Origin: Sphingobium sp. MI1205
Lineage (GTDB): Bacteria > Pseudomonadota > Alphaproteobacteria > Sphingomonadales > Sphingomonadaceae
Direction: 5' to 3'
Assembly: GCF_001563285.1 (NCBI RefSeq)
Contig: NZ_CP005188.1
Span: 687,501-751,500 of the forward strand
DNA: 64,000 nucleotides
Below the pieces are notes generated by a model. That model was not told the DNA's origin, did not search any database, and worked only from the letters and a program-made list of their open reading frames with translations. This document shows, piece after piece, positions 19,590 to 39,091 of the stretch. Within the stretch, counting starts at the first letter, position 1, and each line of letters begins with the position of its first letter. The position numbers and the translations under genes were made by a program.

Positions 19590-20020
19590 CAATGAAACTC
19601 CACTTCTATAGGAGCCTGAAGGCCCAGCTGGCGCATCAGCGCGGCGGTGTCCCACAGGCTGCGCTCCAATATGATCTTGCCATCCTTGAAGGCATGGATG
19701 GTCATGCCTTGTACGCAAGTGGTCTTGCCGGCGGCGGGTAAGCCCATAAAGTCGGACCTGTGATGGATTTCCCATGTCCATTCAAGGCAGCCGCCTCTCT
19801 CGTCGCCATGATAGCGGACGGCGTTGAAATAGTGACATGACCTTTCCGGATCGGAATTTTCGAACGTCGTAAACCAGCGACGCAACTTGGCACGATCATT
19901 GTCGATCCGGACGCCGAAGTTCAGATCTTCATATTCAAATTGTTCAGGATAATTGGCCATCAGCTCTTCCAGCCGATTGTCGAACTGTTCCAGCCAATCC
20001 TGTTCCCATTCCAGATTCAT
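19589..20020 (-). CDS. SnoaL/NTF2-like protein
   Basis: 143 residues, a single small alpha+beta barrel domain of the SnoaL-like type: helical start (WEQDWLEQFDNRLEELMANYPEQFEYEDLNFGVRIDN), a WTWEIHH strand and a C-terminal GMTIHAFKDGKIILERSLWD. It is clearly paralogous to the protein at 22695-23129, sharing FEYEDLNF/FEFEDVNF, LEWTWE/FQWTWE, LPAAGK/VPAKGK and ILERSLWD/VLERSIWD. Family members are isomerases, cyclases, dehydratases or hydrolases acting on cyclic or aromatic intermediates. It is coupled to the SDR downstream. Confidence 0.8.
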   Translation of the reverse strand: MNLEWEQDWLEQFDNRLEELMANYPEQFEYEDLNFGVRIDNDRAKLRRWFTTFENSDPERSCHYFNAVRYHGDERGGCLEWTWEIHHRSDFMGLPAAGKTTCVQGMTIHAFKDGKIILERSLWDTAALMRQLGLQAPIEVEFH

Positions 20021-22347: not shown

Positions 22348-22694
22348 AGCGTCTCTCCTTCCTGATGTGACGCCGATCGATGCGGCGCTCTGTGAACTTG
22401 ACTTCGGAATTGCCTCTTAAAGACAGCGACACCAGAGAAAAGAGAATGCCCCAGCGTGACAGGTGATGACCTAGCGGGACAATAGACGACAAGGAATAGC
22501 GGCGGTTTTCCGCCATTTTGCAATGCGTCAAAAACCCTTGTGAGAAAAAGTTGCCCTGATTTTGGCACGAAAAGTACATTGCCCGTGCGATTGGCCATGG
22601 CTGGTTGCGACGGGTGCATTATCACATAGCTAACGGGCGCGCCGCATGACTAACTACAAAGGTGCAGGGCCGCCGCGCCGCAAAGGAGAGAGGT
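22348..22694. promoter_or_regulatory. Divergent promoter region between TonB receptor and P450 operon
   Basis: 347 bp without a gene, separating two divergently transcribed units. It contains a GGCGG-TTTT-CCGCC hairpin near 22502-22515 and the two-part motif described separately. No confident -35/-10 pair could be assigned by eye. Confidence 0.5.
22561..22598 (+). promoter_or_regulatory. Candidate AraC-regulator binding site (copy 2)
   Basis: TTTGGCACGAAAAGT, 17 bp, GGCCAT. This matches the site at 17059-17096 with one mismatch in the 15-mer and identical spacing to the hexamer. It is 97 bp upstream of the ATG at 22695, in the shared region with the TonB receptor, so it could serve either or both units. 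Confidence 0.5.
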
Positions 22695-23129
22695 ATGAAC
22701 AAGGATTGGGCGCAGTATTGGATCGGCCTGTTCGCCGATGGGACCGACGAGCTGATGACGCTCTACAATCCACAGTTCGAGTTCGAAGACGTCAATTTCG
22801 ATCTTCAGATCAACAACGATCTTCCGGCGCTGCGTCGATTCTTCGAAGGATTCATTATCGAGGATGCAAGCCAGAGCTATAACAAGTTTGACGTATTCGA
22901 CTATGTTGGCGACGATCGGCTTGGGTCCTTTCAATGGACCTGGGAAACCAAGCATGCCGGCGATTTCCTGGGCGTCCCTGCGAAGGGCAAGATCACCAAG
23001 ACCCGGGGCGTGACCGTGATGGGCTGGGACGAGGCCGGTAAGATCGTGCTGGAGCGCAGCATTTGGGACGCGGTCCCGGTTTTTCAGCAGCTGGGCGTCG
23101 TTCCGATGTTCGGCGCCAATCAGGTTTGA
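22695..23129 (+). CDS. SnoaL/NTF2-like protein (first gene of P450 operon)
   Basis: 144 residues, paralogue of the protein at 19589-20020 (shared FEFEDVNF, FQWTWE, VPAKGK, VLERSIWD). The start ATG follows a GGAGAGAGG site; an upstream in-frame start lacks one. SnoaL-like folds often catalyse isomerisation, cyclisation or hydration of polycyclic intermediates. The stop is 6 bp before the P450 start, so the two are tightly linked. It could act on the P450 substrate or product (inference). Confidence 0.8.
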   Translation: MNKDWAQYWIGLFADGTDELMTLYNPQFEFEDVNFDLQINNDLPALRRFFEGFIIEDASQSYNKFDVFDYVGDDRLGSFQWTWETKHAGDFLGVPAKGKITKTRGVTVMGWDEAGKIVLERSIWDAVPVFQQLGVVPMFGANQV

Positions 23130-23135
23130 ACCGAT

Positions 23136-24332
23136 ATGAGCTATAATCCTCTGGACCCGGCGGTCACCGCCAACCCTTATCCCCATTATGCCAAGCTGCG
23201 GGCGGAAGAGCCGGTCAAATGGCTGGACATGATGCAGGGCTTCGCCGTTTCTCGGTGGGACGATGTCGAGGAAGTGCTGGGCGACGGCAAAACCTTTTCC
23301 TCGGCGCAGTTCTGGCCGGCATTGCTCGGCGAATATGATCCGGTGCCGGAAGTGCAGCCGATGATCTCGCTCGATCCGCCAGGCCATGTCCGTATCCGCA
23401 AGCTCGCCAACAAGGCCTTCGTTCCCAGCCGTGTCGGCGCGTTGCAGGACCGCATCCGCACCGTGACGCATGAGCTAATCGATGGCATCTTTGCGCGACA
23501 CGGCAAAGAGGGCGAATTTGATTTCGTCTGGGAGTTCTCCGGCCTCTTCCCGGTCAGCGTCATTGCCGAGGTGCTGGGCGTCGATATCGAACGCCGCGTT
23601 GATTTCAAACGGTGGGTGGACGATCTCTTGGCAGCTGGAAACCGCGCGGCCTACGGTCCTGAGCGGCTTGCGGAAATCGACAGCAGCTCGCGATCGATCC
23701 GTGCCTATTTCGAGCAGGTCTATGACGAGCGATCGGCAAATCCTGGCGACGACCTTATCAGCGGCTTCATCCAGGCGGAGGTTAATGGCGAGCGGCTGAG
23801 TCGCAGCGAAGTGCTGAACATGGCGATTTTGCTGTTGATCGGCGGGGTGGAGACGACCACCAACCTGCTCGGCATCACCTTCGCGCATTTCAAGACCCAT
23901 CCCGAGATCGCGGCCGCTATTTGGGCCGATCCCACCAGGATTCCTCTTCTGCTGGAGGAAATGTTGCGGTTCGATGGGCCGGTGCAGATGCTGTTCCGGC
24001 ACACGACCCGTGATACCGAACTGGCAGGTGTCGCCATTCCCAAGGGCTCGCTAGTGCTTCCGCTGTTGGGATCGGCCAATCATGATGAGCGCAAGTTCGA
24101 CCGTTCTGAGGAACTGGTTCTGGACCGAGATCCCAAGGAGATCATGTCCTTCGGCCAAGGGCCGCATTTCTGCCTCGGCTCCTATCTTTCGCGTATGGAG
24201 GCCCGGAGCGCACTGGAGATCCTGACCTCGCGCTTCGAGAGTCTCGAGGCGGTCAGCGACACGGTCAAATGGTCGGATTCCTACTTTGCGCGCGGTCCGA
24301 AAACACTGCCAGTCAGGTTCAAGGCCCGATGA
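23136..24332 (+). CDS. Cytochrome P450
   Basis: 398-residue soluble bacterial P450. The I-helix oxygen-activation motif (GGVETTTN, from about 236), the EMLR of the K-helix ExxR and the heme loop FGQGPHFCLG with proximal Cys346 are all present. It lacks a membrane anchor, so it is a class I cytoplasmic monooxygenase needing a ferredoxin and a reductase. A Rieske-type ferredoxin follows two genes later, but a dedicated ferredoxin reductase is not seen. It overlaps the FAD-oxidase start by 4 nt. Likely role: first hydroxylation of the imported substrate (inference). Confidence 0.94.
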   Translation: MSYNPLDPAVTANPYPHYAKLRAEEPVKWLDMMQGFAVSRWDDVEEVLGDGKTFSSAQFWPALLGEYDPVPEVQPMISLDPPGHVRIRKLANKAFVPSRVGALQDRIRTVTHELIDGIFARHGKEGEFDFVWEFSGLFPVSVIAEVLGVDIERRVDFKRWVDDLLAAGNRAAYGPERLAEIDSSSRSIRAYFEQVYDERSANPGDDLISGFIQAEVNGERLSRSEVLNMAILLLIGGVETTTNLLGITFAHFKTHPEIAAAIWADPTRIPLLLEEMLRFDGPVQMLFRHTTRDTELAGVAIPKGSLVLPLLGSANHDERKFDRSEELVLDRDPKEIMSFGQGPHFCLGSYLSRMEARSALEILTSRFESLEAVSDTVKWSDSYFARGPKTLPVRFKAR

Positions 24333-25744
24333 GTGACAGTCGTTCGAGCGCCGACGCGCCATCGTCCGCATTGATCGACCAGCTCCACGCAATTCTGGGT
24401 GAGGGCGGTGTGCTGACCGGGGCGGATGTTTCCGGCCGCCATCCCGGCTATTTCATGACAAAGGTCGAGGCGAACGTCCTGTTGCGGCCTGAAACGACCG
24501 AGCAGGTGTCACAGATCATGGCGCTGTGCCATGCGGCCGGCCAGCCAGTGGTGATACAGGGCGGAATGTCCGGCTGGGTCCGCGCGACCCAGACGCAGCC
24601 CGGCGAGGTCATCCTGTCGCTCGAGCGGATGAACCGGATCGAGAGCGTCGATCCGGCGAACCGCACCGCCATCGTGCAGGCCGGCGTCATCCTGGAACAT
24701 TTCCAAGACCATCTGGAGGAGCATGGTCTCAGCTTTCCGCTGGACCTAGGCGGGCGCGGATCATGCCAGCTCGGCGGCAACGCGGCGACGAACGCCGGAG
24801 GAATGCGCGTCATCCGCTATGGCATGATGCGCGAGCAGGTGCTGGGGATGGAAGTGGTGCTGGCGGACGGCCGGGTACTGTCTTCCATGAACCAGATGAT
24901 CAAGAACAATACCGGCTATGACCTCAAGCAGCTGTTCATCGGCAGCGAGGGCACGCTGGGCGTGATCACCCGCCTTGTCCTGCGCCTCAGGGAGCGCCCG
25001 GTCAGCAGCAATACGGCGCTGGTTTGCGCCGACAGTTTCGATCGCATCGCCCAATTGCTGCGGTATGTCGACGGCGCCCTGGGTGGCCTGCTCAGCGCCT
25101 TTGAGCTGGTCGATAACAGCTTCTATCGCGTCAACACTGGTGAGGGGCGCCATGCGCCGCCGCTGGGATCGGACAAGCCCTATTACGCGATGATAGAGGC
25201 GCTTGGTTCCGATCATGAACGCGACCGCGACCTGTTCGAAGCCGTGCTGGCCGATGCGGCGGAAAAAGGGCTATTCGACGATGCCATTGTCGCGCGATCG
25301 GAAAAGGACCGCGCCGCCATCTGGGGCATCAGGGAGGATTTGGAGCATATCGTCCATGACTTCCAGCCCTTCTATGCCTTCGACGTCAGCCTGCCAGTCG
25401 GCGAGATGGAGGCTTATATGGCAGAGGTCAGGCGGCGGCTGAAGGCGATCTGGCCCGATGGCGGCATCGCCTTCCTCGGTCATGTGGGTGACGGCAATCT
25501 GCACATCGCCATCGGGGCGGGCACCCCGCAGGACCGGGAGCGGGTCGAGAGTTGCGTCTATGAACCGCTCCGTCCCATCAGCGGCTCGGTATCGGCCGAA
25601 CATGGCATCGGCCTGGAGAAGAAGCGCTGGCTGCCGATCACCCGCAACGTCCTGGAGCGGGGCCTGATGCGCGACATCAAGCATATGCTGGACCCCAAGG
25701 GGATACTCAATCCGGGCAAGATCTTCGCTGAGGAGAATGGGTGA
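24329..25744 (+). CDS. FAD-linked 2-hydroxyacid oxidase/dehydrogenase (GlcD / D-lactate dehydrogenase type)
   Basis: 471 residues. The FAD-binding type 4 domain (VIQGGMSGW, LGGRGSCQLGGNAATNAGGMRVIRYG, GSEGTLGVITRL; about 45-225) is followed by the FAD-oxidase C-terminal domain with metal/substrate histidines (HVGDGNLHIA, SAEHGIGLEKKRWL). The family oxidises D-2-hydroxy acids to 2-oxo acids. The start was set by the ATGA overlap with the P450 stop. In this operon it would feed a 2-oxo acid to the ferredoxin oxidoreductase two genes on. Confidence 0.9.
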   Translation: MSDSRSSADAPSSALIDQLHAILGEGGVLTGADVSGRHPGYFMTKVEANVLLRPETTEQVSQIMALCHAAGQPVVIQGGMSGWVRATQTQPGEVILSLERMNRIESVDPANRTAIVQAGVILEHFQDHLEEHGLSFPLDLGGRGSCQLGGNAATNAGGMRVIRYGMMREQVLGMEVVLADGRVLSSMNQMIKNNTGYDLKQLFIGSEGTLGVITRLVLRLRERPVSSNTALVCADSFDRIAQLLRYVDGALGGLLSAFELVDNSFYRVNTGEGRHAPPLGSDKPYYAMIEALGSDHERDRDLFEAVLADAAEKGLFDDAIVARSEKDRAAIWGIREDLEHIVHDFQPFYAFDVSLPVGEMEAYMAEVRRRLKAIWPDGGIAFLGHVGDGNLHIAIGAGTPQDRERVESCVYEPLRPISGSVSAEHGIGLEKKRWLPITRNVLERGLMRDIKHMLDPKGILNPGKIFAEENG

Positions 25745-25889
25745 GTCTGCGCACCAATGCGCGGCGTGAGGCGCCAAACCGCCCGCGTCCCGTTTGACTG
25801 GAAAATGGCATGGCCCGCCCTGCTTTGTTGGCCCAGAATGCCTTAAGACAAGCGCAGCCCCCGATGTGCGAAGGGGCATGGGAGTGGAT

Positions 25890-26195
25890 ATGATGAAAGT
25901 TGGTGAATATTCGGAGTTGACGGCGGACAAGCCGCTCCGCGCGTCGCTGGGATCGGAAAAGATCCTTGTGTTCCTGGTGAACGGCTCGCCGGTCGCGACG
26001 CAGGCACGCTGTCCTCACGCGCATGGTCCGCTACACCAAGGCGAAATATGCGGCACAGTGCTGACTTGTCCGTGGCATGGCTGGAGTTTCGACCTGGTCA
26101 CCGGTCAATGCGAGGAAGACCCCGATCTGCTGCTCAAACGCTACGAGGTGAAGGTGGAGGGCAATGACATCCTGGTGGCTGAGGCTGCGGAATGA
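25890..26195 (+). CDS. Rieske [2Fe-2S] ferredoxin
   Basis: 101 residues, single Rieske domain with ligands Cys41, His43 (CPHAHG) and Cys60, His63 (CPWHGWSF). It resembles the small soluble ferredoxins of dioxygenase systems and NirD-like proteins. The start was chosen at the ATGATG preceded by GGGAGTGG. A 145-bp gap separates it from the FAD oxidase. It is a probable electron carrier for the P450 or for the ferredoxin oxidoreductase of the same operon; which one cannot be told from sequence. Confidence 0.88.
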   Translation: MMKVGEYSELTADKPLRASLGSEKILVFLVNGSPVATQARCPHAHGPLHQGEICGTVLTCPWHGWSFDLVTGQCEEDPDLLLKRYEVKVEGNDILVAEAAE

Positions 26196-26196
26196 C

Positions 26197-26922
26197 ATGA
26201 CCGGTCCATCGTCCCATCCTGCGTCCACAAGCCTGGCTCTGCACGGCTATCCGGTCAGCAACTATTTCAATGCGGCACGCGCGGCGTTGATCGAGAAAGG
26301 CGCGGTGTTCACGGTCGTTCCGACCCGCGCGAGCCAGGACGATGCGTTTCTGAAGTTAAGCGCGATGGGCAAGATACCGTTCCTGCAGACGCCCGATGGC
26401 TGCATAGCGGAGACAGTGGCGATCCTCGAATATATCGAGGAGGCCGTCCCCGGCATTCCGCTATATCCCGCGACACCCTTCGAAAGGGCCCGAGCGCGTC
26501 AGATCGTCAACATCGTGCAGGTCTATGTCGAGGCGCCGCTGCGCTCGCTCTTTCCCGGCATCTTCATGGGCGGCGTGAACGCGCCCGAGACGATCGCCGC
26601 CGCCCAGCCGGTTGTCGAGCGCGCGATGCGGGCGCTGGGTCAGCTGGTCACGTTGAACCCCTATTTGCTGGGTGCGCAACTGACCCATGCCGATCTGTTC
26701 GCCTTCTACACCTTCGACATCGGGGAACGGGTTGCGCGCTTCACCTGGGACATGTCGCTGCTGGACCGGGTGGAGGGCCTTCGCGACTGGTTCGATGCGA
26801 TGGCCGACCGGCCGAGCAGCCGAACCGTGCTCGCCGATTTTGACACCGCCTTTGCTGCCTACCTCCGCGACAAGGCGGCTGCCTGGCAAGAGCCGGAGCT
26901 GAAAGAGACCCATCATGCGTGA
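26197..26922 (+). CDS. Glutathione S-transferase family protein
   Basis: 241 residues: N-terminal thioredoxin-like domain (LALHGYPVSNYFNAARAALIEKG, GKIPFLQTPDG, IAETVAILEYIEE with the cis-Pro and the glutathione-contacting Glu) and an all-helical C-terminal domain (LTHADLFAFYTF). Sphingomonad GSTs of this type cleave ether bonds, dehalogenate or isomerise aromatic intermediates, but the substrate is not evident. It starts one base after the Rieske stop and overlaps the next gene by 8 nt, so it belongs to the operon. Confidence 0.88.
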   Translation: MTGPSSHPASTSLALHGYPVSNYFNAARAALIEKGAVFTVVPTRASQDDAFLKLSAMGKIPFLQTPDGCIAETVAILEYIEEAVPGIPLYPATPFERARARQIVNIVQVYVEAPLRSLFPGIFMGGVNAPETIAAAQPVVERAMRALGQLVTLNPYLLGAQLTHADLFAFYTFDIGERVARFTWDMSLLDRVEGLRDWFDAMADRPSSRTVLADFDTAFAAYLRDKAAAWQEPELKETHHA

Positions 26923-29900
26923 CGTGAAACTGGACGATAAATATACGGTCGATAATGGCCGCGTGATCATGAGCGGCACCCATGCACTGATCCGCGTGCC
27001 GCTGCTGCAGAAGGAGATCGACGTGCGTGCCGGCCTCAATACCGCCGGCTTTATTTCGGGTTATCGCGGCTCGCCGCTGGGCACTTATGATCTTGAGCTG
27101 TGGCGGGCGAAGGACCTGCTCCAAAGCCATGACATATTGTTCCAGCCCGGCGTGAACGAGGATCTCGCAGCGACCGCGGTGTGGGGCACGCAAATGCTGG
27201 CGACGACGCCCAAGGCCAATCGCGACGGCGTGTTCGCCATCTGGTACGGGAAGGGGCCGGGCGTCGATCGTTCGGGCGATCCGTTCAAACATGGCAATAT
27301 TGCGGGCACCAACCCCCATGGCGGGGTGCTGATCGTCGCGGGCGACGACCATTCGGGCAAATCCTCGACCGTGGCGCACCAGAGCGAGATGGCGCTGATG
27401 CATGCGGGCATGCCGATCCTGGCGCCGTCAGATGTGCAGGATGTCATCGACTTGGGGCTGCTGGGCTTTGCCATGTCGCGCTATACCGGCCTCTATACCG
27501 GTTTGAAGCTGACCAACGAGACGCTTGAGCAGACGATGACAGTCGATGTCGGGCTGGACGGCAAGGAGCCGATCTGCCCGGATCGCGGCCCGGCGCCGGC
27601 CAATGGCTTCCACAACTATCCCACCCATCTCGACCGCATCGGCTCGGAGATCGTGCTGAAGCGCTATCGCTGGCCGTTGATCGGCAAGTTCGTGCGCGCC
27701 AATGGAATCGATCGGACGTTGATCGATGCGCCGCAGCGGCGACTGGGCATCGTGTCCACCGGCAAGGCGGTGCAGGATGTGCGGCAGGCGCTCAAGATGC
27801 TGGGGCTGGACAGGGAAGCCGCCGCGGCGCTCGGCGTGTCCTTCTATAAGCTCGGCTGCATGTATCCGGTCGAGCGCGAAGGTCTTGCGGAGTTCGCCGC
27901 TCGGCAAGGCGAACTGCTCTTCATCGAGGAGAAGGACCCGCTGGTCGAGAACCAGGCGAAGGCGATCCTTTACGGGCGGCCAGAGATGCCGCGCATCGTC
28001 GGCAAGGTCGACGAGAACGGCGTGTCGATGATCCCGGCGGACGAGCAGTTGGAACCGGTACAGCTGGCGATTGTCATCGCCGAGCGGCTGCGGCGTTTGG
28101 GCGTGACCGATGAACGGCTGGAAGCCCGCGCCCAGCGCCTTTCGCGACAGCTGGAAACGGTCGCGGCGCTCAAGCCCGCCGATGCGGCGCGCTCGCCCTA
28201 TTTTTGTTCGGGCTGCCCGCACAATACCGGCACGCGCTTTCCCGAAGGCTCCATCGCAGCGGGCGGCATTGGCTGCCATGCCATGGCGATGTATTCCGGC
28301 CCGGAGATGCTTCCCAATACCCAGATGGGTGGGGAGGGAGCGCATTGGTACAGCCTCGCCTATTTCAGCGACATGAACCACATTTTCCAGAATATGGGGG
28401 ATGGCACCTACTATCATAGCGGCCTCCTCGCAGTGCGGGGCGCGGTCGCGGCGAAGGTCAACATGACCTTCAAGATCCTGTTCAACGATGCCGTCGCGAT
28501 GACCGGCGGCCAGCCGGTGGATGGGCCGCTGACGCCGGGTGATATCACCCGGCAGGTTCTGGCCGAAGGAGCGGCGCGCTGCGTCGTCGTGACTGACCGC
28601 CCCGAACTTTACGATGCGCAAAGCGGACTTGGCCCCGGCGTCACCGTGCACCATCGCGACACTTATGACGCTGTGCAGAAGGAATTGCGCGACGTCCCGG
28701 GCGTCACCGTCATCGTCTATGAGCAGACCTGCGCGGCGGAAAAGCGGCGCCGCCGCAAGCGCGGCAAGTTCCCCGATCCTGCCAAACGCATGTTCATCAA
28801 TTCCGCGGTCTGCGAAGGCTGCGGCGACTGTTCGGTCCAGTCAAACTGCGTCAGCGTGTGGCCCAAGGAAACCGAACTGGGGCGCAAGCGGCAAATCGAC
28901 CAGTCGAACTGCAACAAGGATTATAGCTGTGTGAAGGGCTTTTGCCCCAGCTTCGTGACCGTGCTGGACGCAGAGCCGCGCAAACCGCAAAAGGCGCAGC
29001 TCGCCAGCGAGACCGACATCGAGCTGCCCGCGCCTGCGCTCGTTCCGCTGAAAGGCGGCGCCTACAACATCATGGTGTCGGGCATCGGCGGGACCGGCGT
29101 AGTCACCATTGGCGCGCTGCTCGCCATGGCGGCGCATCTGGAGGGCAAGTCGACATCGGTGTTCGACATGACCGGGCTCAGCCAGAAGAACGGCGCGGTG
29201 TTCAGCCATGTCCGCATCGCCGCGCAGAATGAGGATCTCGGCGCGCAGAAGCTGGGCATCGGCGAGGCGGATCTCGCTCTTGCCTTCGATGCGGTGGCCG
29301 CCCTCGCCAAGGAGCCAGCTATCACGCTGGATGGCGAGCGGACGAAGACGGTCGTCAACGCGCGGGTCACGCCAACGCCGGCCTTTCAGCGCAATCCAGA
29401 CCTGACGCTGGACCAGGGGCTGCTGGTGCGGCGGCTGGGCAAGATGTCGGCAGAACTGCAAAGCGTTGACGCCACTGGGCTGGGTCTAGCGCTGCTGGGC
29501 GATACCATCGCGGCCAATCTGTTCATGCTGGGCTATGCGAGCCAGCTCGGCCTGCTTCCGGTCTCTCCGCAAGCGATCGAGCGGGCGGTGGAGATCAACG
29601 GCGTCGCGATCCCGTTCAACAAGGCGGCCTTCTTCCTGGGACGGCTGCAGGCGGTCGATCCGCAAAGGATCGAGAAGGCGGTGGTGAGCCATGTGCAGGA
29701 GATCGAGTTCCAGCCGCTCACCAAGCTTGACGACATCGTGGCGCATCGCACGAAGCTGCTGACCGATTATCAGAATGCTGCCTGGGCGCAGCGCTACCGC
29801 GATCTGGTCGATGTGGTGGCAAAGGCGGAGCAGCGGGTCACGCCGGGCAAGGACGTCCTGTCGGTGATGGTGGCGCGCAACTTCGCCAAGCTCATGAGCT

Positions 29901-30403
29901 ACAAGGATGAATATGAGGTGGCCCGGCTGCACAGCGACCCGGCGTTCAAGCAGCAGCTCAAGGAGACGTTCGAGGATGGCGCGAAACTGCGCTACAATCT
30001 GGCGCCGCCGCTCTTCTCGAAGCGCGATCCCGAGACAGGTCATCTCCAGAAGCGCGAGTTCGGGCCTTGGGTCGGCCACGCCTTCAACCTTCTGGCGAAG
30101 CTCAAAGGATTGCGGGGTACCGCCTTTGACGTCTTCGGCTATACCGAGGAACGCAAGATGGAGCGTCGGCTGATCGACCATTATGAAGCGCAGATGCAGA
30201 TGGTCGCTCAGCGCCTGACCGCGCACAACCATGCCGCAGCGGTCGAACTCGCGTCGCTCCCCGCGCAGATCCGCGGATACGGCCATGTCAAGGAAGCCAA
30301 TGTCGAAAAGGTCAGGGCGCTGGAACCGGCGATCCTAAAGAAGTTTGCCGAGGCGGATGCCGCCGCAGCCGAATCGCGGGCTCCCCTGCTCCAAAATGCC
30401 TGA
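26915..30403 (+). CDS. Fused indolepyruvate ferredoxin oxidoreductase family protein
   Basis: 1162 residues, combining in one chain the subunits that archaea carry as IorA and IorB. In order: an N-terminal pyrimidine-binding and CoA region (GFISGYRGSPLGTYD), a TPP-binding domain with GDG at 495-497 and downstream FNDAVAMTGGQ, an iron-sulfur region with clustered cysteines from Cys633 (CEGCGDC, YSCVKGFC), and a gamma-type domain (VSGIGGTGVVTIGALL, LSQKNGAVFSHVRI), then a C-terminal extension. The family oxidatively decarboxylates aryl- or branched 2-oxo acids to acyl-CoA, reducing ferredoxin. In this operon it probably takes the 2-oxo acid made by the FAD oxidase. Confidence 0.93.
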   Translation: MRDVKLDDKYTVDNGRVIMSGTHALIRVPLLQKEIDVRAGLNTAGFISGYRGSPLGTYDLELWRAKDLLQSHDILFQPGVNEDLAATAVWGTQMLATTPKANRDGVFAIWYGKGPGVDRSGDPFKHGNIAGTNPHGGVLIVAGDDHSGKSSTVAHQSEMALMHAGMPILAPSDVQDVIDLGLLGFAMSRYTGLYTGLKLTNETLEQTMTVDVGLDGKEPICPDRGPAPANGFHNYPTHLDRIGSEIVLKRYRWPLIGKFVRANGIDRTLIDAPQRRLGIVSTGKAVQDVRQALKMLGLDREAAAALGVSFYKLGCMYPVEREGLAEFAARQGELLFIEEKDPLVENQAKAILYGRPEMPRIVGKVDENGVSMIPADEQLEPVQLAIVIAERLRRLGVTDERLEARAQRLSRQLETVAALKPADAARSPYFCSGCPHNTGTRFPEGSIAAGGIGCHAMAMYSGPEMLPNTQMGGEGAHWYSLAYFSDMNHIFQNMGDGTYYHSGLLAVRGAVAAKVNMTFKILFNDAVAMTGGQPVDGPLTPGDITRQVLAEGAARCVVVTDRPELYDAQSGLGPGVTVHHRDTYDAVQKELRDVPGVTVIVYEQTCAAEKRRRRKRGKFPDPAKRMFINSAVCEGCGDCSVQSNCVSVWPKETELGRKRQIDQSNCNKDYSCVKGFCPSFVTVLDAEPRKPQKAQLASETDIELPAPALVPLKGGAYNIMVSGIGGTGVVTIGALLAMAAHLEGKSTSVFDMTGLSQKNGAVFSHVRIAAQNEDLGAQKLGIGEADLALAFDAVAALAKEPAITLDGERTKTVVNARVTPTPAFQRNPDLTLDQGLLVRRLGKMSAELQSVDATGLGLALLGDTIAANLFMLGYASQLGLLPVSPQAIERAVEINGVAIPFNKAAFFLGRLQAVDPQRIEKAVVSHVQEIEFQPLTKLDDIVAHRTKLLTDYQNAAWAQRYRDLVDVVAKAEQRVTPGKDVLSVMVARNFAKLMSYKDEYEVARLHSDPAFKQQLKETFEDGAKLRYNLAPPLFSKRDPETGHLQKREFGPWVGHAFNLLAKLKGLRGTAFDVFGYTEERKMERRLIDHYEAQMQMVAQRLTAHNHAAAVELASLPAQIRGYGHVKEANVEKVRALEPAILKKFAEADAAAAESRAPLLQNA

Positions 30404-30448
30404 TGCTTCCAAACGACAAAAACACGAATATCGGAGAGGTAGGAAAAC

Positions 30449-31861
30449 ATGGTCAAGATGCTGATCGATGGAGCGTTGGTCGATACCGCGCGGAAGATGG
30501 ATGTCATTGATCCCACTGACGAGAGCGTTGTTGCGCAGGTGCCCGATGCCGGGACGGCGGAGGTGGATCAGGCGGTCGCCGCCGCGAAGCGTGCCTATCC
30601 TGCTTGGCGCGACGCGACGCCCGATGAACGAGGCGCCGCATTGACCGCCATGGCGAAGGTCATTGCCGATAATGTCGACGAACTAGCCCAACTGCTGATC
30701 CAGGAGACGGGTCGCCCGCTGGCGCTGGCGCAGTTCGAGATCGCCCACTTGGCCGTAGGCTATCTCAACTATTATGCGGGTCTGCGGATCGAGCCTGAAA
30801 TACTGGTCGAGGACGAAATGCGCCGGGTTGAACTGCACCGCAAGTCGCTCGGCGTCGTTGCGGCCGTTGTCCCGTGGAACGCCCCGGTCTTCATCGCCTG
30901 CAACAAGATCGCGCCCGCTTTGGCCGCCGGCAATACGATCGTCGTCAAAACCGCGCCGTCAACACCACTCACCACCTTGCGGCTGGGCGAGTTGATCAGG
31001 GAGGTCGTTCCCGCCGGCGTCGTCAACATTCTGTCGGGCGGGAATGAGGCGGGCGCGCATCTCGTTTCCCATCCCGACGTTGCCAAGGTGACCTTCACCG
31101 GATCGACCGCCACCGGTCGCAGGATCATGGAGGCGGCCTCACCCACGCTCAAGCGTGTCACGCTGGAACTGGGTGGCAACGATGCGGCGATCGTGCTGCC
31201 CGACGCCGATGTGAAGGCGATCGCGCCCGCGATTTTCGCCTTCGCCTTTTTCAACAGTGGCCAGGTCTGCGCAATCATCAAGCGGCTTTATGTTCACGAT
31301 AGCCTGTATGACGCGATGTGCGCGGAGATCGCCGCCTATGCCGCAGCATCGAAGGTCGCGGGCGGCCGCGATCCGGAGGCGCAGTTCGGGCCGGTCCAGA
31401 ACAAGGCGCAATACGACAAGGTCCTGGACTATCTGGCGGGTGCCAGAGCCAGCGGCACGATCATCGCCGGTGGGGAATTGCCGGCGGGGCCGGGATATTT
31501 CGTACCGCTGACGGTTGTGCGGGACGTTGCGGATGGCGATCCGATTGTCGATGAGGAACCCTTCGGCCCGATACTGCCGATCATCCGCTACAGCGACATC
31601 GACGATGTGATCGAACGGGCCAATGCCTCTTCCTTCGCGCTGGGAGGCTCGATTTGGTCGAGCGACCCCGAAGCGGCGGCGAAGATTGCGCTGCGGCTCG
31701 AGAGCGGCAGCGTTTGGGTAAATCAGCATTGCGCGCTCGATCCGGCGGTGCCCTTCCCGGCGAACAAGCAGTCGGGTTTTGGCGTCGAGGGCGGGCTGGA
31801 AGGGCTCTATCCCTATACCGCGCTACAGACCCTCAACATCGCCAAGCCGGTCGCGGCATGA
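30449..31861 (+). CDS. NAD(P)-dependent aldehyde dehydrogenase
   Basis: 470 residues. Cofactor motif VPWNAP, FTGSTATGR, general base Glu240 (VTLELGGND) and nucleophile Cys274 (FFNSGQVC) are all in place. It oxidises an aldehyde to the acid. It follows the ferredoxin oxidoreductase after 45 bp (with a GGAGAGGTAGG site) and overlaps the SDR downstream by 4 nt; the SDR/ALDH pair suggests alcohol to aldehyde to acid. The substrate is not predictable. Confidence 0.93.
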   Translation: MVKMLIDGALVDTARKMDVIDPTDESVVAQVPDAGTAEVDQAVAAAKRAYPAWRDATPDERGAALTAMAKVIADNVDELAQLLIQETGRPLALAQFEIAHLAVGYLNYYAGLRIEPEILVEDEMRRVELHRKSLGVVAAVVPWNAPVFIACNKIAPALAAGNTIVVKTAPSTPLTTLRLGELIREVVPAGVVNILSGGNEAGAHLVSHPDVAKVTFTGSTATGRRIMEAASPTLKRVTLELGGNDAAIVLPDADVKAIAPAIFAFAFFNSGQVCAIIKRLYVHDSLYDAMCAEIAAYAAASKVAGGRDPEAQFGPVQNKAQYDKVLDYLAGARASGTIIAGGELPAGPGYFVPLTVVRDVADGDPIVDEEPFGPILPIIRYSDIDDVIERANASSFALGGSIWSSDPEAAAKIALRLESGSVWVNQHCALDPAVPFPANKQSGFGVEGGLEGLYPYTALQTLNIAKPVAA

Positions 31862-32646
31862 GCATCCTTGAATCTCTCTTTTCCGTCGCGGGCAAGACCG
31901 CTGTCGTCACCGGCGGCGCCAAGGGCGTCGGCGCGATGATAAGCCGCACGCTGGTCGAGGCGGGTGCCAACGTGCTGATCGTCGGGCGTGGGGCGGAGGT
32001 GGGTGCGGCATTCGCCGAGAGCCTTGAAGGCCCGGGCAAGGCGTTTTTCCTTTCCCATGATCTGGGCACCACGGCGGGCGTGGAGGCGGCGGCGGCGGAC
32101 ATTGCCGGGCGCATCCCCGCGCTGAACATCCTCGTCAACAATGCCGGAATGTTCAGCGCCGGCCCGATAGAGGATGCCAGCGCCGACCAGTGGGACCGCG
32201 AGATGGGGCTGAACCTGCGCGCCCCTTTTTTCCTGGCTCAGGCATTGTTGCCCGAACTCAAGGCGGCGGCAAGCCCTGGTGATCCCGCGCGGATCATCTC
32301 CATCGGCTCGATCGGCGCGCTCTGGGGGCGCAGCAGCAATGGCGCCTATGCCTATGGGGCGAGCAAGGCCGCGATCCATCAACTCACCCGAATGATGGCG
32401 TCGGACCTGACGGCCCAGGGAATCACCGTCAACGCGATCGCGCCCGGCTTCTTCCCCAGTGACATGACCGACGGCTTCTTCGCCGCGGTGCCGGGCCTCA
32501 AGGATCAGGTGATCGCGGGCATTCCTGCCGGGCGGCTGGGTTCTGCGGAAGATGTCGGCGGCGCTGTTCTGTTCCTTGCCTCTCGCGCGGGCGCCTATGT
32601 CTCGGGCACGGTGCTGCCGGTGGAGGGTGCGCTATGGCAGGCGTGA
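31858..32646 (+). CDS. SDR-family oxidoreductase
   Basis: 262 residues: TGGAKGVG cofactor loop, NNAG, catalytic serine (IGSIGALWG), YAYGASK active site and the PAGRLGSAEDVGGAVLFLAS C-terminal part. The start was set at the ATGA overlap with the aldehyde dehydrogenase stop. The pairing suggests an alcohol dehydrogenase step that provides the aldehyde, although the gene order does not prove the direction. Confidence 0.9.
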   Translation: MSILESLFSVAGKTAVVTGGAKGVGAMISRTLVEAGANVLIVGRGAEVGAAFAESLEGPGKAFFLSHDLGTTAGVEAAAADIAGRIPALNILVNNAGMFSAGPIEDASADQWDREMGLNLRAPFFLAQALLPELKAAASPGDPARIISIGSIGALWGRSSNGAYAYGASKAAIHQLTRMMASDLTAQGITVNAIAPGFFPSDMTDGFFAAVPGLKDQVIAGIPAGRLGSAEDVGGAVLFLASRAGAYVSGTVLPVEGALWQA

Positions 32647-33176
32647 CAGCGGAGCAGGCAGCCTGGCGGTTCGAGATCATGGATGTCATTCACCGTTATT
32701 GCCACGCGGTGGACCGCCGCCGTTGGAGCCTGATGGACAGCGTTTTTCATGAGGATGCCACCTATAAATTCTTCTCGATTGAAGGCACATGGCGTGATTT
32801 CGTAGCGCAAGCGAAGGCGCTGATCGATCCGATCGGGCCGACCCATCATCAGGTGAGCAATATCACAGTCCGCTTCCACGGAGACACAGCCTGGGCCGAG
32901 ACCTATCTGCGTGCTTTCCACCAGGTGCCGCCGGACTATCCCCCCTGGACTGTCTTTTCCCTTGCAGGCGGCGGGGTCATCCTGATCGGGGGGCGCTATA
33001 TTGATCGGTTTGAACGCCGCGCGGGCGAATGGCGCGTCGCACACCGGCACGGGCTGCTGGACTGGCGACAGGACCACGCCAATGTCGACGGCGGACTGGC
33101 CGCCACGCCGCTCGAATGGCGCGGTCGGTTCGGGGATGCCGATCCGTCACGGCCGGTGATGGAGGGATGGCTTTGA
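32634..33176 (+). CDS. SnoaL-like / nuclear transport factor 2-like protein
   Basis: 180 residues. It has the N-terminal pattern of the polycyclic-aromatic-related SnoaL-like family (IMDVIHRYCHAVDRRRWSLMDSVFHEDATYKF), a HHQVSNITVRFHGDTAWAETYLRAFH strand pair and a GGRYIDRFERRAGEWRVAHRHGLLDW end. Proteins of this type are common in sphingomonad degradation clusters and are usually of unknown activity. It overlaps the SDR by 13 nt and the following gene by 1 nt. It is not a close paralogue of the two SnoaL-like proteins near the TonB receptor. Confidence 0.82.
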   Translation: MAGVTAEQAAWRFEIMDVIHRYCHAVDRRRWSLMDSVFHEDATYKFFSIEGTWRDFVAQAKALIDPIGPTHHQVSNITVRFHGDTAWAETYLRAFHQVPPDYPPWTVFSLAGGGVILIGGRYIDRFERRAGEWRVAHRHGLLDWRQDHANVDGGLAATPLEWRGRFGDADPSRPVMEGWL

Positions 33177-33949
33177 TGGCGCAGCCGACCACGATCGCGC
33201 TGCTTGAGCGGAAAGCCGACATTTCGCGGGATCTCTTCTCACGTTATTGGCGTGACGTTCATGGGGTGATGGCCGCGCGGATACCGGGCTTCGATTCCTA
33301 CACGCAGCATCATGTGACCCCATTGGAGGATCTGGGATCGGCGATCGTCGAGCCGTTCGAAGGGATAGCGGTCGTTACGTTCGCCAAGCCGGAAGACCGG
33401 GCGGGCCTGATCCACAGCGCGGTGACGAAACATATCCATCGTGACGAGCAGAATGTCTTTCGCAGGGCCTTGCTCTATAATCTGGAGGCGGACGCAACGG
33501 TGATCGCGGGTCAAGCCGACTATTCGGCGCTCGCCAGCTATTTTCTCGTGCTGCCAGTAGGTGTGGATGGCGGCGCGCTTGTGCAGAATCTGATGCGCGC
33601 CGGCGCCGCGACGGTCGCGGTCCATGACCTCACCGGCGCCGATCCGGGCGGCTGGAACGATACCGACGTGGAGGAAGGCGGCGCGAGCCGGCTATTCGGC
33701 GCGGTCGTGCAGTGCTGGTGGCCCAACCCGGGGTTGGCTCGCACCGCGCTGGCTGGTGTCGTTCAGGCCAGCGATGGCCAGATCGCCTGCTATCGAACTG
33801 ACGACCGCTATCCCATGGTGGAGCAGCAGCGTCCGACGCTGATCGGCTTGCGCGGGCTCGACGCTGTCCGCACGATCAGGGAAGCGAACGCGGTCAACCA
33901 GTCCGATCCGGAAGTGCTGCGCGCAATCTATGGCGATGTGGCGGGGTGA
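33176..33949 (+). CDS. EthD-like dimeric alpha/beta-barrel protein
   Basis: 257 residues. The N-terminal part resembles EthD (LLERKADISRDLFSRYWRDVHG), a domain of about 100 residues first known from the P450-based ether-degradation cluster eth of Rhodococcus; the second half may be another ferredoxin-like barrel. The start was placed at ATG overlapping the upstream stop (TGATG) with GGAGGG 9 bp before it; an ATG three codons earlier directly abuts that site. It is the last gene of the P450 operon and is followed by a strong bidirectional terminator. Function unproven. Confidence 0.7.
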   Translation: MAQPTTIALLERKADISRDLFSRYWRDVHGVMAARIPGFDSYTQHHVTPLEDLGSAIVEPFEGIAVVTFAKPEDRAGLIHSAVTKHIHRDEQNVFRRALLYNLEADATVIAGQADYSALASYFLVLPVGVDGGALVQNLMRAGAATVAVHDLTGADPGGWNDTDVEEGGASRLFGAVVQCWWPNPGLARTALAGVVQASDGQIACYRTDDRYPMVEQQRPTLIGLRGLDAVRTIREANAVNQSDPEVLRAIYGDVAG

Positions 33950-34179: not shown

Positions 34180-36285
34180 TCAGGCCCGCATGAGTGGGTC
34201 GCTGATGCCGTGGCGTCCGGTTTCGACCCGCCCGGCAAGGCGGATGTCCATGCCCGCCATAGCGACGGTCAGATCATACCAGTTTTCGCTTTTCGCCACC
34301 GGCCAGCGTTCGTTCGTGCTGCTGCCGCCCACCACCGTAATAGCCCGATCGGTCTGGACGCCATAGGCATCCTTACCAAGAGTGACGCTGACGGGTGTCG
34401 ATCCAGCCGATGCAAGGCGCAGGCGCATGGCCTTGCCCGCCGCATCATAACGGGCGGTGAGCACGGGCGCGGCGGCGGCTTGCAGCAGATCGCCGGTGAA
34501 GCCCCGCACGAAGCCGTTGGGGCCAAGCACGACGAGGTCGAAGCGGCCGTCGGCGTCAGCGGCCCATTGATCGTTCAGCGATTTACCCGCTTCCACGGTA
34601 TAACGGCGCGGGATCTGATCCAGCCTATGCTTGTCATAGACATGGAAAACCGCACCCGCCCTGCCTTCATTGGCAAATGTCAGAACCAGCGCATCCTTCA
34701 TCGCGACGGCATCAACGTGGAGGATATAAGGCAGGGCGCGTGAGCGGCGGATGCCTGCTTCCTGATACATGTCCTGCGGCGCGCGCGGCGGCAGGGCCTT
34801 GGGGCGGGTCATATGATCGGCCAGGATCGCGCTGGCGGCGCTGACATCGGGCAGCGTGGGGAAACCGCTATCGCCGTTCTGGCTGAAATCGAAGCAGCTG
34901 GTAAGGTCGCCACAGACGGCGCGATGCCATGGGCTGATGCCGGGGATCGTCACTCCGAAACGCTTTTCGAGGAACTGGCCGACCGAGGTGTGATCGAATA
35001 TCTCGCTATTGACCCAGCCACCCCGGCTCCATGGCGAAACCACATACATGGGCACGCGCGGACCGAGGCCCCACGGGCGCGTCGTGCCGCTCACATCGTC
35101 ATCGCGCGATGTATATTTGTCCTCATGGTCGTCGAAATAGGCACCCGCCAGATCGAGCGTCGCCTTGCCCGCCATCGTGCCGTCGCGATTATAGGAAGGC
35201 GGCGCGGGCGGCGGCACATGGTCGAACAGCCCATCATTTTCGTCGAACGTCTGAAAGAAGACGGTCTGGCTCCACAGGTCCGGGTTGGCGGTGAGCGCGT
35301 CCAGAACTTCCGCCGTGAAGGCTGCGCCTTCGATCGGGGTCGAAGCGCTGGGATGTTCCGATCGCTCTTTGGGTGGCAATATCCATGACACGGCAGGCAG
35401 GGTGCCGTCCTTCACATCCCTGGCGAATTGTTCGAGCGAAAATGCGCTCATGCCGCGCTGGTAGAGGCCGGATTGTGGCTTGGCATCGCGGAACCCCTTG
35501 AAGGCCAGGCCGCCGTGCATCGCCCCGGTCCAATTGTCATTGGGATCCTGATAGATGCGCCAGTCTATTCCGGCAGCCTCCAGCACTTCGGGGATGGTCG
35601 CCCATTCCAGTGCGTTTCCAGCGTAGGTATAGCCCGGTTCGGGCAGTGCGCCCTTGATCCAGCAACGTAAATTATTCGGCTCCGAATGCGTATCCCGGCA
35701 ATTCACGCCCTGCGCGGCGACCTTGGGGTCGAAGCTGGAGCCGGACCAGAAAACGATGCGATTGGGGTCGGTGCCGCTGGTCACCGAACAGTGATAGGCG
35801 TCGCAAATGGTAAATGCTTCAGCGAGCGCGAACTGGAAGGGGATATCCTGCCGCTTGTAATAGCCCATCGAATAATCGGTCTTATATTTGGGCCACAGGC
35901 CGAATTTGCCCTGATTCCAGGCGGCCTGCGCGTCTGAAAAGCTGTGCGGCGTACCAGGAACCTTAAGCGCGTTGGTCCGCTCCGTATCCAGATGGAAGGG
36001 CGGCAGGTCGCGCGCGCCGTTGGATTGCCACCAGACCGGGCGATTGTCGGGCAGGGGGATGGGATGGCGATCGCCAAAACCCCGCACCCCTTTGAGCGTG
36101 CCGAAATAATGATCGAACGACCGGTTTTCCTGCATCAGGATGACGATATGCTTCACGTCCTTGATCGTGCCGGTCACGCGCTTGGGCGCGATGGCCAGCG
36201 CCCGCCCGATGCTGCCCGGTATGGCCGCCATGGTCCCCGCCACGCTGGCGGTCTTGAGGAAATCGCGTCTGTTCTTCAGGGACAT
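34180..36285 (-). CDS. Phospholipase C, phosphocholine-specific type (Tat-exported)
   Basis: About 701 residues from MSLKNRRDFLKTAS. This is a twin-arginine signal (RRDFLK) followed by an alkaline-phosphatase-like catalytic domain (HIVILMQENRSFDHYFGTLKGVRGFGDR, FDENDGLFDHVPPPAPP, RVPMYVVSPWSRGG) and two small C-terminal DUF756-type domains (from about 530). The family hydrolyses phosphatidylcholine or sphingomyelin to release phosphocholine outside the cytoplasm. It is the last gene of the operon with a TonB receptor and a PhnDCE-like transporter, so it probably releases the phosphorus compound that they import. Confidence 0.9.
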   Translation of the reverse strand: MSLKNRRDFLKTASVAGTMAAIPGSIGRALAIAPKRVTGTIKDVKHIVILMQENRSFDHYFGTLKGVRGFGDRHPIPLPDNRPVWWQSNGARDLPPFHLDTERTNALKVPGTPHSFSDAQAAWNQGKFGLWPKYKTDYSMGYYKRQDIPFQFALAEAFTICDAYHCSVTSGTDPNRIVFWSGSSFDPKVAAQGVNCRDTHSEPNNLRCWIKGALPEPGYTYAGNALEWATIPEVLEAAGIDWRIYQDPNDNWTGAMHGGLAFKGFRDAKPQSGLYQRGMSAFSLEQFARDVKDGTLPAVSWILPPKERSEHPSASTPIEGAAFTAEVLDALTANPDLWSQTVFFQTFDENDGLFDHVPPPAPPSYNRDGTMAGKATLDLAGAYFDDHEDKYTSRDDDVSGTTRPWGLGPRVPMYVVSPWSRGGWVNSEIFDHTSVGQFLEKRFGVTIPGISPWHRAVCGDLTSCFDFSQNGDSGFPTLPDVSAASAILADHMTRPKALPPRAPQDMYQEAGIRRSRALPYILHVDAVAMKDALVLTFANEGRAGAVFHVYDKHRLDQIPRRYTVEAGKSLNDQWAADADGRFDLVVLGPNGFVRGFTGDLLQAAAAPVLTARYDAAGKAMRLRLASAGSTPVSVTLGKDAYGVQTDRAITVVGGSSTNERWPVAKSENWYDLTVAMAGMDIRLAGRVETGRHGISDPLMRA

Positions 36286-36311
36286 GGCCGCTCCGATCAA
36301 TAGGATGGGGG

Positions 36312-37313
36312 TTACAAGAGGGATTTGCGCAGCCGTCCGGCGCTGCGATCCAGCAGCAGGACGACGATGAAGATGGCGATCAGGATCGTGCCGACATGGC
36401 CATATTCATACATGTCGTAGCGGCCCTTGAGTTCCTGACCGATGCCCCCTGCACCCACCAGCCCGATGACGGTCGCCATGCGGACATTCCGGTCCAGGAT
36501 GTAGAGCGTGTAGGCGATATATTGGGGCAGCACCTGGGGCAGGATGGCATAGCGCCACATCAGCATCTTGCCCGCGCCGATGGCGGTCAGGGCTTCCTGC
36601 GGCCGGGGGTCGGCATTTTCGGCATCGTCGGCATAGAATTTACCCAGGAACCCGGCGCCGTAGAGGCCGAGCGCCAATATGCCCGCGATCGGGCCGAAAC
36701 CGTAAGCAATGACGAGAAACAGGGCGCTGACCAGTTCGGGAATGGCCCGGCAAAAGCCGATGATGCCGCGCGCCACCATGCGGATGACCGCGAACCGCAT
36801 CATGTTGCGTGCGCTCAGCAACGCCAGGGGAAAGCCGATGAGGATGGCGACGATCGTACCCCAGAGCGCGATTTCCAGCGTCTCCAGCATCTTGGCCGCG
36901 ACCAGCCAGACATAGCCGAGCGGTTGCACCAGATAGGTCGTGCGGACCGGACGGCTTTCCATCCGCATCGTTTGCGGATTGATCGTTTCGGCGCGGCGTT
37001 CGACGACCTCGACATGGGACAGGAATGGCAGGTCGGTTGGATCGAAACCTTCGATTCGGCTGACCTCCTGCCGTTCGGAAAGCTGGATGGGGACGAGCTG
37101 GCCGATGGCGTTGCCAAGGCCGTCGGCGACCTGCGATTGGTCGGCCAGGCCGAATTGCACGGCAACGGCCTGCGTCGTCATCATCACCATCCGGCCGATT
37201 TCGACGCGCTGGCCCGTGTACCAGAGCAGAAGGGCCGAGCCGATCAGCGCCAGGATCGTGCCGCTGCCATAGGGGCGCGGGTAGGACCAGCGGGTGCGCG
37301 CCTGCGCGGTCAT
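36312..37313 (-). CDS. phnE: Phosphonate-type ABC transporter permease
   Basis: 333 residues. The C-terminal 200 are a binding-protein-dependent permease domain (ETLEIALWGTIVAILIGFPLALLSARNMM, ALTAIGAGKMLMWRYAILPQVLPQYIAYTLY with the EAA-type loop). It is longer than typical PhnE (about 260-290 residues) because of a hydrophilic stretch of roughly 80 residues between the first and second membrane helices (about 60-135). Its start overlaps the phnC stop (ATGA). Confidence 0.9.
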   Translation of the reverse strand: MTAQARTRWSYPRPYGSGTILALIGSALLLWYTGQRVEIGRMVMMTTQAVAVQFGLADQSQVADGLGNAIGQLVPIQLSERQEVSRIEGFDPTDLPFLSHVEVVERRAETINPQTMRMESRPVRTTYLVQPLGYVWLVAAKMLETLEIALWGTIVAILIGFPLALLSARNMMRFAVIRMVARGIIGFCRAIPELVSALFLVIAYGFGPIAGILALGLYGAGFLGKFYADDAENADPRPQEALTAIGAGKMLMWRYAILPQVLPQYIAYTLYILDRNVRMATVIGLVGAGGIGQELKGRYDMYEYGHVGTILIAIFIVVLLLDRSAGRLRKSLL

Positions 37314-39000: not shown

Positions 39001-39091
39001 ATGCACACCCTTCCTATCCCGCTCAGCCGGAGCGGCGGACGGGATAGGCGTGGGCTGTGACATGGCGGTGAATGCGCTTCCATGCGGGCGA

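Follow-up and report, generated by a model that had tools for sequence, protein, structure and literature searches.

The best point of comparison for the gene cluster considered here is the edc/oec cluster of Caenibius tardaugens NBRC 16725 and Sphingomonas sp. KC8, which acts on estrogens. In the part of the published account at hand (PMC7793797), this sphingomonad cluster has a cytochrome P450 gene at its start (edc), a TonB receptor, and an enzyme of the indolepyruvate ferredoxin oxidoreductase (IOR) family that converts a 2-oxoacid to an acyl-coenzyme A (acyl-CoA), which then passes to beta-oxidation. Our locus lies in a stretch of 64,000 nucleotides from Sphingobium sp. MI1205 (NZ_CP005188.1, positions 687,501 to 751,500), hereafter the window, and resembles the edc/oec cluster in all of these respects. 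The difference, as far as that part of the account goes, lies in the origin of the 2-oxoacid, which in edc comes from extradiol meta-cleavage, whereas that of the window, as we read it, comes from 2-hydroxyacid dehydrogenases. The Aed pathway of Rhodococcus sp. B50, in the portion of its description available, is without an EdcC homologue and has a ring-cleavage context, unlike the operon of the window. An earlier note on this DNA, made from the letters alone, did not recognise the gene set as a described pathway. This stands for the set as a whole, but the combination of P450, IOR and beta-oxidation has a precedent in edc (PMC7793797, as far as seen). A description of the gene set was not found in the open-licence full-text literature, a coverage that leaves out most subscription literature, and the edc cluster was the nearest system.

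The operon, a plus-strand unit at 22695-33949, is probably catabolic and would lead by P450-linked chemistry to a D-2-hydroxyacid and from there by way of a 2-oxoacid and an acyl-CoA to beta-oxidation, with a mirror-image L branch in related bacteria. Its enzymes, and the step that forms acyl-CoA, are of known kinds; the pathway that they would make up seems undescribed, with two entry branches of opposite stereochemistry. Gene content, linkage, the pairing of P450 clades with dehydrogenase types, active-site residues and the exchange of the IOR between clusters can be read directly from the genomes compared, and it is on these that the argument is built.

Proposed pathway

A hydrophobic compound would enter the cell through a divergently encoded TonB receptor. 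The P450, acting in some order with a short-chain dehydrogenase (SDR) and an aldehyde dehydrogenase (ALDH), would then lead to a D-configured 2-hydroxyacid, which an enzyme dependent on flavin adenine dinucleotide (FAD) would oxidise to the 2-oxoacid. From this the fused IOR would produce acyl-CoA, CO2 and reduced ferredoxin in an ATP-free reaction, and the acyl-CoA would be shortened by a linked module of hydratase, SDR and thiolase. The mirror branch of the relatives would pass through a second kind of P450 (clade A) and an L-2-hydroxyacid dehydrogenase dependent on flavin mononucleotide (FMN), and would deliver to the same IOR. On the simplest reading, the chiral carbinol carbon would be destroyed at the 2-oxoacid, which is the point where the branches would meet. 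The stereochemistry, the order of the steps ahead of the 2-hydroxyacid, the roles of the glutathione S-transferase (GST), SnoaL and EthD proteins, the electron route, the uptake and the substrate are all our interpretation of the gene set and are worded as such below.

The operon

Ten plus-strand genes with intergenic distances of -13 to +148 bp make up the operon, and the gene families named in the earlier note are all present in this single unit. It opens with a SnoaL/NTF2-like protein (SnoaLa, 22695-23129; Pfam SnoaL, 2e-10), followed by a P450 of clade B (23136-24332; placed by Pfam p450, tree and motif positions) and a putative FAD D-2-hydroxyacid dehydrogenase of the GlcD/D2HGDH/DLD group (24329-25744; FAD_binding_4 and FAD-oxidase_C domains), whose gene overlaps that of the P450 by 4 bp. 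Next come a Rieske [2Fe-2S] ferredoxin with a CxH...CxxH motif (about 25893-26195; Pfam Rieske, 1e-18), a GST family protein (26197-26922; Pfam GST_N) with its in-frame ATG at 26197, at a distance of +1 bp from the Rieske gene, and the fused indolepyruvate-type 2-oxoacid:ferredoxin oxidoreductase (26915-30403; NCBIfam PRK13030, with POR and DUF6537 domains). The distal genes encode an aldehyde dehydrogenase (ALDH1, 30449-31861; Pfam Aldedh, 2e-142), a short-chain dehydrogenase (SDR1, about 31858-32646; Pfam and synteny), a SnoaL_4/NTF2-like protein (32634-33176; Pfam, 2.6e-26) and, as the last member, an EthD-domain protein (about 33167-33949; Pfam EthD, 2e-7, and synteny).

The same gene order, which the earlier note had proposed to seek in other sphingomonads, was found in two genomes (G034 and G009) that retain the block through EthD with 67-94% protein identity. 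Because it is kept in both, the order of the operon is not a matter of chance. The synteny starts at a thiolase gene in G034 and at an AraC-type regulator gene in G009, which are the edges of the stretches compared. Altogether, 22 stretches including the window were compared by means of 28 probe proteins. A SnoaLa homologue accompanies the FAD enzyme in all 13 genomes that have this enzyme, ALDH1 occurs in 13 of the 22 stretches, and the SnoaL_4 protein is confined among them to the window, G034 and G009. No clear chemistry could be read from the solved structures related to the SnoaL and GST proteins.

Pairing of P450 clade and dehydrogenase type

Wherever a clade-B P450 was found, a FAD enzyme follows on the same strand (9 of 9 loci: the window, G034, G009, cluster B of strain 15-1, UBA6174, G501, G634, G1034 and G1222), either directly or, in UBA6174 and G501, with the Rieske gene between. 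P450s of clade A are followed in 11 of 11 loci (cluster A of strain 15-1, S. faniae, TCM1, ALB-2, KCTC 2891, N. lentum, GW247, S. italica, G634, G630 and G1222) by an FMN-dependent 2-hydroxyacid dehydrogenase, a family unrelated to the FAD enzyme, and near them stand a SnoaL protein (c10), in 10 of the 11 stretches, and, in 8 of them, an aldo/keto reductase. The clades are 55-65% identical, with 19 fixed differences between them, and are split in the P450 tree by a branch with 100/100 support; the dehydrogenase label changes once on this tree, and gammaproteobacterial P450s fall between the two. Both branches are present in G634, on one contig, and in G1222, on two, with a single IOR genome-wide in each case. 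In strain 15-1 the two clusters are separate and have one IOR apiece, and KCTC 2891, N. lentum, GW247 and S. italica combine the A branch with the FAD enzyme and its SnoaL protein. The clade-A locus of G630 (L148, 1720-7289) comprises the P450, the FMN enzyme, an AraC-type regulator, a SnoaL protein and an aldo/keto reductase.

The P450 of the window has the haem motif FGQGPHFCLG and, at 236, the I-helix acid-alcohol pair in GGVETT. Its best solved relative is 6gmf, with YjiB (7y97) also near, both of which we take to belong to the CYP109 group. Members of this group accept terpenoids, fatty acids and steroids, and carbinols of terpenoid type, such as those related to ionone, may serve as a first guess at the substrate and as nothing beyond a guess.

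Active sites of the two dehydrogenases

In the human D-2-hydroxyglutarate dehydrogenase, according to the part of its published account that we could draw on (PMC7801405), R386, H434, H441, E475 and H476 bind the C1-carboxyl, the C2-hydroxyl and Zn, and T390, K401, Y432 and N443 bind the C5-carboxyl. Equivalents of the first five residues are kept in every one of 14 aligned FAD enzymes (from 13 genomes, N. lentum being entered twice), while the four C5-carboxyl residues are replaced in every row by E, A, L and A, a pattern that sets these enzymes apart from D-2-hydroxyglutarate dehydrogenases. In all likelihood, to judge from these residues, the FAD enzyme is a 2-hydroxyacid dehydrogenase with a substrate other than 2-hydroxyglutarate; since the residues for the C5-carboxylate are replaced, a non-acidic side chain would be expected. 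All 11 rows of the FMN enzyme retain the seven active-site residues of glycolate oxidase, apart from a single Y24F replacement in the numbering of that enzyme. The FMN_dh domain was found in the one row that was Pfam-scanned as such, and related models were matched by two more.

The shared oxidoreductase and its exchange between clusters

The IOR of the window matches the whole-length family model PRK13030 with 1540.6 bits, against a cut-off of 816, and is the only DUF6537 IOR of its genome (4.62 Mb, 6 contigs). It carries ferredoxin-type cysteines, CxxCxxCx5C at 633-645 and further ones at 666, 672 and 677. Nineteen IORs fall on one side of a branch that has 100% SH-aLRT support (by a quick method), and an IOR of this clade, at 72-100% identity, is carried by 14 of the 15 genomes in which the P450 was found, strain 15-1 having two. 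More distant IORs (45-53%) occur in addition in 6 of the 15 (G009, G1030, G501, G1176, G1177 and G1095). Of the 19 regions with the IOR clade, 17 have the Rieske and GST genes, which were not found in the stretches from Cupriavidus necator pBB1 and from the metagenome-assembled genome HKST-UBA131.

The IORs of FMN-type clusters do not form a single clade. In a tree of 12 IORs, that of the window, from a FAD-type cluster, groups with those of TCM1 and of cluster A of strain 15-1, which are FMN-type (support 100/98 and 100/99), S. faniae, also FMN-type, stands among FAD-type clusters, and three changes of the type label are needed. Monophyly of the three FMN-type IORs is rejected with a p-AU of 2e-60, for a group that was named after a first tree. 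At the DNA level the region is a mosaic with breaks near 26.6 kb, inside the GST gene, and near 30.1 kb. Both flanks are nearer to FAD-type clusters, and between the breaks, which enclose the 3' end of the GST gene and the bulk of the IOR gene, TCM1 is at least as near as G034 in each of 17 steps of 200 bases, with one tie. Thus an IOR was exchanged between FAD-type and FMN-type clusters, with a direction of transfer that we infer. Such an exchange, with the frame kept, would be expected if the 2-oxoacids made by the two kinds of cluster are identical or closely alike. Together with the replacement of FAD by FMN enzymes, the kept residues and the shared IOR clade, it supports the core of what the earlier note had proposed, namely the sequence from 2-hydroxyacid over 2-oxoacid to acyl-CoA.

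Electron supply to the P450

The earlier note had seen no ferredoxin reductase. This is correct for the window, which also has no class I P450 reductase or Fer2 ferredoxin beside the P450, but not for the genome, where one reductase with a Reductase_C domain lies about 580 kb past the end of the window and 12 Fer2 domains occur, none of them inside the window. A Reductase_C ferredoxin reductase is present in 14 of the 15 carrier genomes (the exception, G520, is 86% complete) and Fer2 domains in all 15. ALB-2 has two reductases on the contig of its cluster, and in strain 15-1 a Fer2 protein is encoded about 4 kb from the clade-A P450.

The note had also raised a self-fuelling loop, in which reduced ferredoxin from the IOR supplies the P450. 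Since the IOR would yield two electrons and the P450 take up exactly two per hydroxylation, the stoichiometry is compatible with such a loop, as is the usual presence of the Rieske gene; the reductase elsewhere in the genome leaves the loop unsupported. An enantio-convergent pathway that fuels itself in this way strikes us as quite unlikely; in it both branches would meet at one 2-oxoacid, and the Rieske protein would carry the electrons of the IOR to the P450, whose hydroxylation would then need neither NAD(P)H nor a ferredoxin reductase. A possible and plainer arrangement is a redox chain encoded elsewhere, as is suggested for EdcA by its authors in the part of their report at hand (PMC7793797).

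Weighing of alternatives

Several observations weigh against the catabolic pathway proposed above. The pairing of P450 clade and dehydrogenase type was noticed before it was counted, the A/B grouping was made after the loci had been inspected, and related loci are not independent of one another. The assignment of D specificity to the FAD enzyme and of L specificity to the FMN enzyme comes from their families. No clade-B P450 was found in the stretches of KCTC 2891, N. lentum, GW247 and S. italica, and the presence of the FAD enzyme in these four genomes counts against a strict dependence between the two. Two acyl-CoA dehydrogenase probes found no homologue in 19 of the 22 stretches, the remaining three being HKST and C. 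necator, which were the donors of the probes, and S. italica; this would fit an acyl-CoA with a double bond already in place, or a dehydrogenase gene at another location. The IOR of C. necator pBB1 has neither a P450 nor either dehydrogenase within 15 kb. Finally, G630 (95% complete) has no IOR at E <= 1e-100 in spite of its clade-A P450 and FMN enzyme, so that the P450-A/FMN branch can evidently stand without this IOR. The single IOR of G634 and of G1222 pulls in the opposite direction, and the two findings leave the weight of the proposal unchanged.

Membership in the edc pathway was the first explanation considered, with P450 and IOR published together there, and was demoted to a rival by the missing dioxygenase and the separate IOR clade. 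Such an estrogen or steroid pathway, in which the P450 introduces a hydroxyl group into a ring that a dioxygenase then opens, leaving the meta-cleavage product for the IOR to decarboxylate, would account for a P450 (EdcA) and an IOR (EdcC) in one cluster, the steps being backed by mutants, as well as for the TonB receptor and the beta-oxidation enzymes, which also belong to edc in the part of the account seen (PMC7793797). The 39 open reading frames (ORFs) of the window that were Pfam-scanned include no extradiol or VOC dioxygenase, the conserved enzymes are instead 2-hydroxyacid dehydrogenases of two types, and the IOR belongs to a clade of its own, with no Caenibius record among the best 80 of at least 583 relatives. 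We regard an edc-like pathway as very unlikely. A role in the catabolism of aryllactates and arylpyruvates, with D- and L-dehydrogenases that handle racemic aryllactates and a P450 that acts elsewhere on the molecule or is unrelated, would suit the convergence of both dehydrogenase types on the IOR and the fact that this is the sole DUF6537 IOR of the genome; IORs are also known from aromatic amino-acid metabolism (PMC7793797, in the part seen). Against it stand the place of the P450 in the same operon, in 4-bp overlap with the FAD gene, the agreement of its clade with the type of dehydrogenase at all 20 loci, and its rarity (7 of 94 genomes of the genus, that of the window included), which is unlike core amino-acid metabolism, and this explanation appears unlikely.

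A special form of the catabolic pathway that we favour is alpha-oxidation, in which the P450 would hydroxylate C2 of an acid resistant to beta-oxidation, to the L product in clade A and to the D product in clade B, and the other enzymes would remove one carbon. The position of the P450 directly before the dehydrogenase, and the pairing of clade with handedness, match this. To our knowledge, the known bacterial P450 alpha-hydroxylases are CYP152 peroxygenases. These have lost the I-helix acid-alcohol pair, which the P450 of the window keeps, so that it does not qualify as one of them. There is also no clear reason for making both hands of one intermediate, and ALDH1 and SDR1 are left unexplained. 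Alpha-oxidation is to our mind somewhat unlikely.

Distribution

A search of GTDB species contigs gave at least 583 relatives of the IOR, and in the best 80 of these, on which we rely here, 11 are at 74-93% identity, one is at 61% and 68 are at 49-54%. Carriers of the clade among the best 80 include Sphingobium sp. 15-1, S. terrigena EO9, S. faniae, Sphingobium sp. TCM1, Novosphingobium strains, N. lentum and Sphingopyxis italica. In a set of 396 Sphingomonadales genomes, 80 have an IOR at E <= 1e-200, two of them (that of the window and G425) at 87% or more and the remainder at 54% or less. The P450, at about 61% identity or more, is found in 7 of 94 genomes of the genus, in at least 4 of 195 of another genus and 1 of 9 of a third, and in at least 5 of 397 genomes of a family sample and at least 1 of 398 of a phylum sample, the window's own genome being included in the first count and in the last two; the family, phylum and 195-genome counts are lower bounds, since the best 4 or 9 candidates per genome were scored. 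P450s at 78-93% identity are present, among the matches listed, in Sphingobium limneticum, S. cupriresistens and Sphingosinicella soli. Source names in the best 120 of 431 P450 homologues ("cytochrome P450", "YjiB", "hypothetical") give no hint of a substrate. Some culturable sphingomonads are pollutant degraders.

On plasmids, all 1328 records of P450 relatives are under 60%, and 1 of 208 records of IOR relatives exceeds 60%, that of C. necator N-1 plasmid pBB1 (70%). In this stretch (L116, 1-33432), of which ten ORFs were Pfam-scanned, the IOR stands beside an acyl-CoA dehydrogenase, an old-yellow-enzyme, a FAD_binding_2 protein, a thiolase and a DUF1329 protein, and the probes found no homologue of the P450 or of either 2-hydroxyacid dehydrogenase there; it is perhaps another use of the IOR clade. 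Elsewhere, an IOR of 61% and an ALDH1 of 74% are found beside an MR_MLE_C enolase-superfamily protein, a FAA hydrolase, an acyl-CoA dehydrogenase and a hydratase (L046, 5-8641), and a Sphingopyxis macrogoltabida plasmid (L117, 1-27387) has an IOR of a neighbouring clade among genes for a Rieske dioxygenase, a VOC protein and a 4-hydroxy-2-oxovalerate aldolase.

Neighbouring genes and regulatory elements

The SDR, thiolase and crotonase module that the earlier note had pointed out is present at 12.7-15.7 kb and is a conserved neighbour of the operon. On the plus strand it consists of SDR3 (12779-13561), a likely 3-hydroxyacyl-CoA dehydrogenase whose best models are FabG-like and all below cut-off, a thiolase (13575-14780; NCBIfam PRK08242, 678.2 bits against a cut-off of 514) and an enoyl-CoA hydratase/isomerase (14795-15718; family models). 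The thiolase occurs at 60% identity or more in 7 of the 22 stretches, the window among them, in FAD-only, FMN-only and mixed clusters alike, and in UBA6174 it adjoins an ECH-3HCDH fusion. The module is followed on the same strand by an AraC-type regulator with an Arabinose_bd domain (16021-17046; domain and synteny), of which 18 of the 22 stretches have a homologue (45-88% identity, the window itself aside), and by two proteins, the second COX3-like (17165-18533; syntenic in several genomes). The minus strand then encodes SDR2 (18822-19781; domain and synteny), a second SnoaL-like protein (SnoaLb, 19589-20020; synteny and homology to SnoaLa, the copy of one relative being 43.7% identical to SnoaLa over 151 amino acids) and the divergent TonB-dependent receptor (TBDR1, 20083-22347; Pfam and synteny), which is syntenic in 8 of 9 clade-B loci and missing from the stretch of G1222. 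With TBDR1, SnoaLb, SDR2, AraC, the COX3-like pair and the SDR3/thiolase/hydratase genes beside the operon in several relatives, the conserved unit is larger than the ten genes of the operon.

Between TBDR1 and SnoaLa, a direct repeat, GCGTGACA-N12-GCGGGACA (22454-22481, plus strand), is a candidate operator for the AraC-type regulator. In the form GCGTGACA-N12-GCGNGACA it is found at this place in 7 stretches with the FAD enzyme (the window and G501 among them, and N. lentum counted once), against a chance expectation of 0.0 per set in 20 shuffles; the motif was derived from an 11-row alignment without G501, so that only the match in G501 is independent. The exact repeat was not matched in G034, G634 and the B-side stretch of G1222. 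S. faniae has a further match, with a longer spacer and at another location (19.1 kb of its stretch). An operator common to A and B clusters was sought and not found at A-side promoters, which makes the direct repeat a feature of the B side. A conserved element, TTTTGGCACGAAAAG (window 22560-22574), also lies between TBDR1 and the operon and is a candidate promoter element.

Beyond the operon, neither of the two closest clusters (G034 and G009) showed synteny with the genes 3' of 33949. The minus strand at 34180-41377 encodes a phospholipase C-like protein, a phosphonate-type ABC transporter and a TonB plug-domain protein, and is perhaps a separate phosphorus-scavenging unit.

Implications and comparison with known systems

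If the proposed pathway is true, it would be a bacterial route by which a hydrophobic chiral compound is oxidised, activated and shortened, the activation taking place without a CoA ligase. It would also be a rare example in nature of an intermediate whose handedness is revealed by the kind of dehydrogenase, one of two unrelated ones, that adjoins the P450. It predicts that the two dehydrogenases have opposite stereospecificity and form a common 2-oxoacid, and it raises the question of whether a P450 can be driven by an oxidoreductase that acts on 2-oxoacids.

As regards its parts, the IOR belongs to a clade apparently other than that of EdcC. The FAD enzyme has the domains and the Zn and substrate residues of the FAD-dependent D-2-hydroxyglutarate, D-lactate and glycolate dehydrogenases, with the difference that its C5-carboxylate residues are replaced. 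The FMN enzyme of the relatives has the domain and active-site residues of the (S)-mandelate dehydrogenase/(S)-2-hydroxyacid oxidase family, and differs from it in that a P450 gene adjoins it at all 11 loci and an IOR of the clade is present in 10 of those 11 genomes or stretches. A parallel for paired branches is camphor degradation, which reportedly employs enantiomer-specific isoenzymes in branches that are split by the handedness of the substrate; it differs in that its Baeyer-Villiger chemistry is not homologous to the branches of the window.

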